Positions 2,443 through 11,120 of a DNA stretch of 47,363 bases are shown here, piece after piece. The notes under the pieces were generated by a model. That model was not told the DNA's origin. It saw nothing but the letters and a program-made list of their open reading frames with translations, and made no database searches. Both the position numbers and the translations under genes were made by a program. Source of the DNA: Candidatus Rokuibacteriota bacterium (GTDB lineage: Bacteria > Methylomirabilota > Methylomirabilia > Rokubacteriales > CSP1-6); contig JACPCF010000015.1 of NCBI GenBank assembly GCA_016179965.1, positions 1 through 47,363 of the forward strand, written 5' to 3'. How positions within the stretch are numbered: the stretch's first letter is position 1; each line of letters starts with the position of its first letter.

Positions 2443-3643
2443 GCGGGTCTCCGAATGGCTCGACCAGGACGATCTCGCCGGGTTTCACGTCGCCACGCTC
2501 TTCCTCGATGACGATGAGACAGTTCCCCGCCACCATCGAAGTGAGGATGCCCGAACCCTGGGGGCCCGTGGTCCTGACTTCCCAGCCCCGGGGCCCGAAC
2601 GTCAGAATGCCGCGCTTGAACTCCCGCCGCCCCGGTTTCTTCCTCATGGGCTCGGCCGCCAGCGCGCGGAACTGGGTCGGGAAAATCTCGCGGCGGCCGG
2701 CCAGCTTCCAGAGCGCCGGGCGGACGAAGAGGAGAAAGGTCAGCATGGAGGCCACGGGGTTGCCCGGCAGGCCGAAGAAGAGCGCCTCGCCGATCCGGCC
2801 GACGGCCAGCGGCCGCCCGGGCTGCATGGCCACCTGCCAGAAGTCGATGCCCCCGATCTCGCCGAGCACGTCCTTGACGAGATCGTAGATCCCGACCGAG
2901 ACACCGCCCGAGGTCAGCACGAGGTCGGCCGCGCGGCCGGCCTCGAGGAGCCTCGCCCGGAGCTCATCGCGCACGTCGGGGACGATGCCGAAATCCATCG
3001 CCGCACCGCCGGCCTGCTCGACGAGACCCCGGAGCGAGAACCGGTTCGAGTCGTAAATCTGGCCGGGCTTGCGGGGCTCGCCGGGCTCCGCCACCTCGTC
3101 GCCCGTCGAGAGGATCGCCACGCGCACCTTCTGTCGCACGAGGACTTGGGGGAAGCCAAGCGAGGCGATGACCCCCAACTCCTGAGGGCGGAGGACGGTG
3201 CCGGCGCTGATGACGACCGCGCCGGCCCGAACGTCCTCGCCGCTGAGGCGGACGTTCGCGCCCCGGGCGATCGCCGGCACTTTGACCTGGTCGCCGGCGC
3301 GCTCGACCAGTTCCTGGGGGACCACGGCGCCGGTGCCCGCCGGCACCGGCGCCCCCGTCATGATGCGGACCGCCTGTCCCGGCTTGACCGTGCCGTCGAA
3401 GACCGAGCCGGCGGGGAGGTCGGCGATGACGTGGAGGGTGGCAGTACCCGCGGCCGGAATGTCTGAGCCCGCCACAGCGTAGCCGTCCACGGCCGAGTTG
3501 TCGGCGGGCGGCACGTCGAACGGCGCCCTGAGGTCGTCGGCCAGAACCCGGCCCAGCGCCTGAGCGACGGGGATGAGTTCCGGAGAGGTGACCGAGGTGA
3601 CCTGGGCCAGGATGTGGGCTTGCCCCTCCCCGACCGAGATCAT
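2435..3643 (-). CDS. moeA: Molybdopterin molybdenumtransferase MoeA
   Basis: MoeA inserts molybdate into adenylylated molybdopterin to give the Mo cofactor. The 402-residue protein shows the family order: an N-terminal domain with VDGYAVAGSDIPAAGTATL, then PGQAVRIMTGAPVPAGTGAV, then the MoCF-like domain with LVLTSGGVSVGIYDLVKDVL and PGRPLAVGRIG, and FFGLPGNPVAS. The frame is open far upstream of 3643, but homology starts at MISVGEGQAH, where an ATG sits 6 bases behind a TATAAT hexamer. Mo-hydroxylase subunits at the right end of this window would need this cofactor. Confidence 0.93.
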   Translation of the reverse strand: MISVGEGQAHILAQVTSVTSPELIPVAQALGRVLADDLRAPFDVPPADNSAVDGYAVAGSDIPAAGTATLHVIADLPAGSVFDGTVKPGQAVRIMTGAPVPAGTGAVVPQELVERAGDQVKVPAIARGANVRLSGEDVRAGAVVISAGTVLRPQELGVIASLGFPQVLVRQKVRVAILSTGDEVAEPGEPRKPGQIYDSNRFSLRGLVEQAGGAAMDFGIVPDVRDELRARLLEAGRAADLVLTSGGVSVGIYDLVKDVLGEIGGIDFWQVAMQPGRPLAVGRIGEALFFGLPGNPVASMLTFLLFVRPALWKLAGRREIFPTQFRALAAEPMRKKPGRREFKRGILTFGPRGWEVRTTGPQGSGILTSMVAGNCLIVIEEERGDVKPGEIVLVEPFGDPHA

Positions 3644-4805: not shown

Positions 4806-4811
4806 TATACT
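4806..4811 (+). promoter_or_regulatory. -10 element placed for a leaderless DUF309 mRNA
   Basis: TATACT ends 7 bases before the GTG at 4819. The gap to the preceding gene is only 26 bases and no ribosome-binding site is visible, so the transcript would start at the GTG. This mirrors the moeA arrangement. Confidence 0.45.
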
Positions 4812-10312: not shown

Positions 10313-10352
10313 ACTGAAAACGCACTAAGGGGTACCGGGGAGGGGGGAGATC

Positions 10353-11120
10353 ATGGCCTTAGATACCACGCTTCTTCGCAGCGAAATCCAGAAGGTCTAC
10401 AGCGAGGTGGTTCGCGACCCGAAGAAGGGATATCACTTTCACACCGGCCCTGAGTACGCTGCCGACCTGCTCGGTTATTCGCGGGCGGCCCTCGCCGAGC
10501 TCCCGGATTCGGTGACGGCGCCGTTTGCGGGGGTCGGCAACCCGCTGTCCATGGGACAACCGCGGCCGGGGGAGACGGTGGTAGACATCGGCGCCGGCAG
10601 CGGGATGGACACGTTCCTTGCCGCCAAGGCCGTCGGCAAGTCGGGGCGGGTCATCGCTGTAGACATGACCGAGGCGATGCTCGAGCGGGGTCGCGAGAAT
10701 GTGGCGCTGACGGGTATGACGCAGATCGAGTACCGCAAGGGGCTCGCCGAGTCCCTGCCTGTTGAAAGCGCTTCCGTCGATCTCGTGATCTCCAACGGGG
10801 TCATCAACCTCTCGCCCGAGAAGGACGTCGTCTTCCGCGAGGCCTTCCGCGTCCTGAAGCCCGACGGCCGCCTCCAGATCGGCGACATCGTGGTCCACAA
10901 GGACATCCCGCCGGCGGGTAGGGAAGACGTCGCGATCTGGACTGCCTGAATTGGCGGCGCTCTGCTGGAGGCAGAGTACATCGCCAAGATCAAGAACGCG
11001 GGGTTCGTGGACGTCGAGATCACGTGGCGCGGCAAGCCCTTCGCCGGCGCCTCGGGCCAGCGCAAGGCTGACAAGTATGAGCTCGAGGGGTTGAACATCC
11101 ACGCCCGGAAGCCGGCTTAG
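10353..11120 (+). CDS. ArsM-like SAM methyltransferase, probable selenoprotein (UGA = Sec199)
   Basis: Read with the UGA at 10947-10949 decoded, this gives 255 residues. Class I methyltransferase motif I is VVDIGAGSGMDTFLAA, followed by VIAVDMTEAML. The segment around UGA reads AIWTA-U-IGGALLEAEYIA, matching the conserved Cys-x-x-Gly-Ala region of arsenite methyltransferases, with UGA at the Cys. The frame then stays open to TAG at 11118-11120, and that stop overlaps the stop of convergent polB. The protein otherwise contains no cysteine, and the N-terminal ArsM Cys position reads AGVGNP, so the substrate may not be arsenite. A stop at UGA would remove the C-terminal 57 residues. Start ATG follows GGAGGGGGGAG. 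A nonsense mutation is the alternative. Confidence 0.8.
10953..10985 (+). promoter_or_regulatory. Candidate bacterial SECIS element
   Basis: A 6-bp stem CTCTGC/GCAGAG (10960-10965 with 10971-10976), extended by a G-U pair, closes the loop UGGAG with G in the second position. A lower stem GGCG/CGCC (10953-10956 with 10982-10985) supports it. Sixteen bases separate the UGA from the loop, within the usual bacterial SECIS spacing. The pairing is seen in the sequence; SelB binding is inferred. Confidence 0.65.

Follow-up and report, generated by a model that had tools for sequence, protein, structure and literature searches.

Does an in-frame UGA in the gene of an ArsM-like methyltransferase encode selenocysteine (Sec), and is the product then an arsenite methyltransferase? 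This question is raised by a gene on a contig of Candidatus Rokuibacteriota (phylum Methylomirabilota), of which we analyzed a stretch of 47,363 nucleotides (here called the window). Based on sequence comparison, we regard it as nearly certain that UGA codon 199 of this gene specifies Sec and, with only slightly less confidence, that the product is a selenoprotein with a single-Sec site. Judged by the residues at its ligand positions, the protein is unlikely to be a canonical arsenite methyltransferase.

The reading frame and its conservation

From the ATG at 10353 the conventional open reading frame ends at the TGA at 10947-10949 after 198 amino acids; read onward to the TAG at 11118-11120, the frame comprises 255 codons with the UGA as codon 199 (Table 1). 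The original prediction had described a UGA with open frame on either side, a truncation by 57 residues in ordinary annotation, a protein without any other cysteine and a new stop overlapping that of the convergent gene. Translation bore this out: the 255-residue read-through protein contains 0 Cys, and the TAG overlaps the stop of a convergent family-B polymerase gene (TTA 11117-11119). We rejected the open frame past the UGA as evidence. By itself it carries no weight, because such frames are so common at the 68% GC of the window, where at least 56 open codons follow 425 of 1600 stops (27%) and 57 of the 129 stops (44%) that close frames of at least 150 codons. The combination of features is, by its conservation across other genomes, well beyond chance.

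Table 1. Coordinates of the read-through gene and its parts in the window
Feature	Position	Strand	Evidence
Purine-rich stretch GAGGGGGGAG, likely ribosome-binding site	10340-10349	+	Sequence; inference
Full read-through gene, 255 aa and stop TAG	10353-11120	+	Translation; homologues aligned end to end
Codons 28-30, His-Phe-His	10434-10442	+	Alignment
Codon 61, Val, at the position of arsenic-ligand Cys72 of CmArsM	10533-10535	+	Alignment to ArsM structures
SAM-binding motif VDIGAGSG, codons 77-84	10581-10604	+	Conserved columns; Pfam methyltransferase domains
Codon 149, Gly, at the position of arsenic-ligand Cys174 of CmArsM	10797-10799	+	Alignment to ArsM structures
UGA codon 199, predicted to be read as Sec, aligned with CmArsM Cys224	10947-10949	+	TGA or Cys codons in homologues
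C-terminal 56 codons, helix and last two core strands	10950-11117	+	AlphaFold2 model; purifying selection
SECIS-like hairpin with a stem of 8 bp and a GGA loop; UGA-loop distance 17 nt	10959-10977	+	Covariation, folding, published bSECIS constraints

TGA is kept at codon 199 in 11 orthologues and 20 paralogous genes. The orthologues belong to Methylomirabilota (L018, L084, L085, L135, L086 and L087; about 62-82% identity) and Chloroflexota (L049 and L051-L054, n=5; 43-51% identity). The tally covers homologues with a readable site, and a contig present under two names was counted once (L018 = L047, L087 = L048, L135 = L019/L050). A further 58 homologues carry TGC or TGT at this position and a single one, L088, carries TAA, so that the predicted conservation of Cys at the site was confirmed, with L088 as the exception. 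A sequencing error in place of TGC or TGG, raised as a possible source of the TGA, is not borne out by the data, since the UGA is present again in independent assemblies.

The codons downstream of the UGA are under purifying selection. Between close relatives, the pairs that are not too diverged to inform, pN/pS was 0.16-0.42 after the UGA versus 0.14-0.21 before it. An AlphaFold2 model of the 255-residue protein (pLDDT 94.8, pTM 0.93, Sec modelled as Cys) places helices and the last two strands, 219-227 and 245-252, past residue 199. Because these residues supply the last two core strands, a 198-residue product would be left without part of the fold.

In L088 (G063:C265) the sequence downstream of the TAA still appears to be selected (pN/pS 0.16 versus L086), and the TAA reflects either an assembly error or a lesion of very recent origin. 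Neither tRNA-Sec nor selB was found in this bin, which is 76% complete, while its selD still has a TGA. A reading of UAA as Sec is not supported by this bin without tRNA-Sec and selB matches, by its TGA in selD or by the tRNA-Sec genes found, all of which have the anticodon tca. A second irregularity concerns the orthologue of G003 (L135, G003:C253): a change of frame near position 3370, around residue 157, breaks it in two, probably through an assembly error.

Selenocysteine machinery and a covarying hairpin

The genome of the window (G000, 92% complete) was searched family by family for the Sec machinery. As the original prediction had proposed to check, selA, selB, selC and selD are all present: selC, with the anticodon tca, selA and selB cluster within a 5-kb stretch of contig 34, and selD is located elsewhere, on contig 96. 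In the selD gene (L080:1501-2520, G000:C96), residue 11 of the matched stretch corresponds to an in-frame TGA, and SelD is therefore likely a selenoprotein itself. Across the phylum, selB scored above the cut-off in 84 of 95 genomes. Two genomes with a UGA orthologue, G042 and G003, yielded no tRNA-Sec at the threshold used, and selB was not detected in G042; both carry a UGA-containing selD, and bin incompleteness is the likely cause of these gaps.

A 6-bp stem with the loop UGGAG had been predicted 16 bases after the UGA. This element (CTCTGC-TGGAG-GCAGAG, 10960-10976) is indeed present, but the 16 nt are the distance from the UGA to the loop, and the stem begins at 10 nt. As folded, the hairpin has the 8 bp and GGA loop listed in Table 1, with -10.3 kcal/mol. 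The fold of 10950-10990 reaches -21.0 (z -4.5), and the 45 nt past the UGA fold more stably than 5000 of 5000 synonymous recodings, among which a hairpin with as many pairs appears in 2.2%. Single-gene folding energy was dropped as a SECIS test because it is weak for many genes, and covariation was used in its place. All orthologues of the subfamily carry the hairpin after the UGA, with the consensus GCUCU[G/C/A]CU-GGA-[A/G]G[C/G/U]AGAGU, and TusA-fused and related paralogues have a hairpin of different letters with the same GGA loop after theirs. Over 17 genes, 98.5% of cells were paired, compared to at most 55% when the partner was slid; the shuffles ignore relatedness, and part of the covariation lies between subfamilies. 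Both partners had changed in four pairs, and one of these four occurs as G-C, C-G and A-U. Stems of at least 7 pairs were found in 26 of 32 UGA genes versus 3 of 58 Cys genes.

The published bSECIS model allows a loop of 3-9 nt with G in the first two loop positions, an upper stem of 4-16 bp, a distance of 16-37 nt from the UGA and a minimum free energy of at most -7.5 (PMC13188914). With its 3-nt GGA loop, 8 bp, 17 nt and -10.3 kcal/mol, the hairpin falls within these limits; together with the covariation, this upholds the predicted bacterial-SECIS-like element 3' of the UGA. An Rfam scan of the window at gathering cut-offs gave no match. The analysis adds a covarying SECIS-like element from the phylum Methylomirabilota.

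Two other readings of the UGA have to be weighed against these data. A gene caller would end the frame at the UGA, leaving either a real 198-residue product or a decayed pseudogene, and L088, in which the corresponding codon is TAA and the hairpin stem contains a mismatch, could be cited in favor of such a true stop. We consider it highly improbable, given that the protein after the UGA is conserved and under purifying selection, that the hairpin covaries, that the other homologues without UGA all have Cys at codon 199 and that the short product would lack two core strands in the AlphaFold2 model. Equally remote is decoding of the UGA as an amino acid other than Sec, whether through a recoded genome or through general read-through. 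Any read-through results in the full-length protein, but the aligned residue is Cys and never Trp, adjacent frames terminate in TGA, and the genome has the complete Sec machinery and the gene a SECIS-like hairpin. The Sec reading of the original prediction is supported by this machinery, by Cys or UGA in the homologues, by recurrence in assemblies and by the covarying hairpin. SelB and tRNA-Sec would thus decode UGA 199 as Sec, with the hairpin at 10959-10977 directing them.

Fold, ligand positions and possible substrate

Pfam and NCBIfam assign the protein to the class I SAM methyltransferases, with the arsenite methyltransferase model NF008823 as the nearest family. Among solved structures, CrArsM, CmArsM and human AS3MT are closest in both sequence and fold; they share the fold (TM-score by query 0.64-0.77) and the SAM site, and the window protein has the ArsM fold together with the SAM motif. 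It scored 228 bits on NF008823 and remains below the curated cut-off of 263. The Sec forms tested on this model reached 150-242 bits, all under the cut-off, and the Cys-triad form L044 reached 336. The methyltransferase domain of three multi-Sec selenoprotein families, ArsM_AhpD_UU (NF041537), ArsM_DUF2284_UU (NF041536) and MTase_UXPK_star (NF047649), covers nearly the whole window protein, with 202-209 bits compared to cut-offs of 460-575. Members of these families are fusion proteins for which two or three Sec are listed, whereas the window protein is a lone domain of 255 residues with one Sec, and with its scores below the cut-offs it belongs to none of them.

Sec in arsenite methyltransferase-like proteins was found in a 2008 GOS survey (PMC2398784), and reviews from 2022 and 2026 list a Sec arsenite methyltransferase with the motif UxxG (PMC9312934, PMC13188914), the latter citing Fomenko 2007 (PMC13188914). 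Sec at the UxxG site of ArsM-like proteins is thus already known, and the window gene adds another example. Like the published family (NF008823 / PRK11873), its product has the ArsM fold and one Sec with xxG after it (UIGG in the window protein). The window protein differs in its score below the family cut-off and in Val and Gly at the Cys72 and Cys174 positions, the published Sec members having been compared by motif only. In the papers on Sec ArsM that we consulted, we found no statement that Sec forms have lost the other arsenic ligands. For one Methylomirabilota genome, 63 predicted selenoprotein genes were recently reported (PMC13188914).

In CmArsM, Cys72, Cys174 and Cys224 are the arsenic ligands; C174A is inactive on arsenite and methylarsenite, and C72A is inactive on arsenite (PMC3877260). 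Compared to this enzyme, the shorter window protein has Val61 and Gly149 at the first two positions and Sec199 aligned with Cys224, and thus lacks the set of three Cys ligands. Gly occupies position 149 in 30 of 30 aligned Sec forms, and none of the 30 has Cys at 61; the UAA gene L088 matches them at both positions. Among the 58 Cys199 forms, 53 have Cys at the Cys72 position and 52 at the Cys174 position, with both present in 52. Neither is present in five (L056, L057, L058, L060 and L062), which the tree groups with the window clade at moderate support. In the Sec forms of the genomes sampled, the presence of Sec coincides completely with loss of Cys174, an association that comprises two well-supported and at most four independent changes, too few for significance. 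Codons 28-30 read HFH in the Sec subfamily and HFP in its Cys cousins, and the Cys-triad forms lack this motif in the alignment.

The name ArsM-like methyltransferase holds for the fold. Activity as an arsenite methyltransferase is in doubt, since Cys is missing from two of the three ligand positions. Sec199 would occupy the place of the arsenic-ligand Cys224, and its selenolate is, by sequence, the only chalcogen ligand that the protein offers. From the ligand losses and the sub-cut-off scores we infer that one selenolate serves as the ligand and that the substrate is something other than arsenite bound through three ligands. The selenolate alone may capture a soft electrophile or metalloid that needs one protein ligand, or it may share the substrate with a small thiol or a partner protein; the captured substrate would then be methylated by SAM. 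Inorganic arsenite would fit this less well than would a mono-ligand arsenical (dimethylarsenite, for example) or a species of sulfur or selenium. It is quite conceivable, although we say so with reserve, that the substrate is something other than inorganic or monomethyl arsenite, and the real target of the enzyme may not be arsenite.

A selenoprotein could still be a true arsenite or methylarsenite methyltransferase if Sec199 and glutathione or another small thiol replaced Cys72 and Cys174; glutathione could supply the missing ligands. The nearest fold and family are those of arsenite methyltransferases, and both reviews list Sec at the Cys224-equivalent site under that name (PMC9312934, PMC13188914). 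Against this stand the inactivity of CmArsM C174A on both substrates, the Gly at the Cys174 position in all sampled Sec forms, the score below the curated NF008823 cut-off and a Cys-triad ArsM (L130) that the same genome carries and that would be available for the job. We regard this role as possible but somewhat doubtful. Returning to a non-arsenite substrate, we tentatively suggest, with no greater confidence, that such Sec-dependent methyltransferases form a class of their own that is widespread in Methylomirabilota and also occurs in Chloroflexota. In this class the Cys trio would be cut down to a single Sec (or, in rare cousins, a single Cys), and the substrate would be a different soft species, perhaps a compound of sulfur or selenium.

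Automatic annotation would cut the protein at residue 198, so that the active residue is lost, and would tend toward the name arsenite methyltransferase; for the Sec forms sampled, the comparison gives a testable reason for doubt.

Gene neighborhoods and related UGA-containing genes

Comparison of the orthologue loci revealed no gene common to all neighborhoods, and the contexts vary. The idea of a sulfur or selenium substrate comes from the TusA, DsrE, rhodanese and metallo-beta-lactamase-fold neighbors of some orthologues, a sulfur theme that is suggestive only. In the window itself, the gene upstream encodes a radical SAM protein that shows no obvious connection.

At L116, a Sec-ArsM/TusA fusion, TusA and DsrE are found upstream. 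At L054, a metallo-beta-lactamase/rhodanese protein is encoded directly upstream and an ArsR/rhodanese protein farther away, and at L135 a neighboring gene encodes a fusion of NifU with a Cys/Met-metabolism enzyme. Another orthologue is immediately preceded by the gene of a metallo-beta-lactamase-fold hydrolase (L131:4751-5530), which has an in-frame TGA of its own at 4808-4810 (CASYLFG-U-GGKS), likely another Sec that replaces Cys.

Sec ArsM-like domains with a C-terminal TusA-like domain are encoded at L116:1673-2794 and L119:598-1779, the former followed by the TusA and DsrE genes. Several more UGA-containing ArsM-like subfamilies were observed in Methylomirabilota (L111-L129); those tested score below the cut-offs of existing NCBIfam models, and each subfamily has a hairpin of its own after the UGA.
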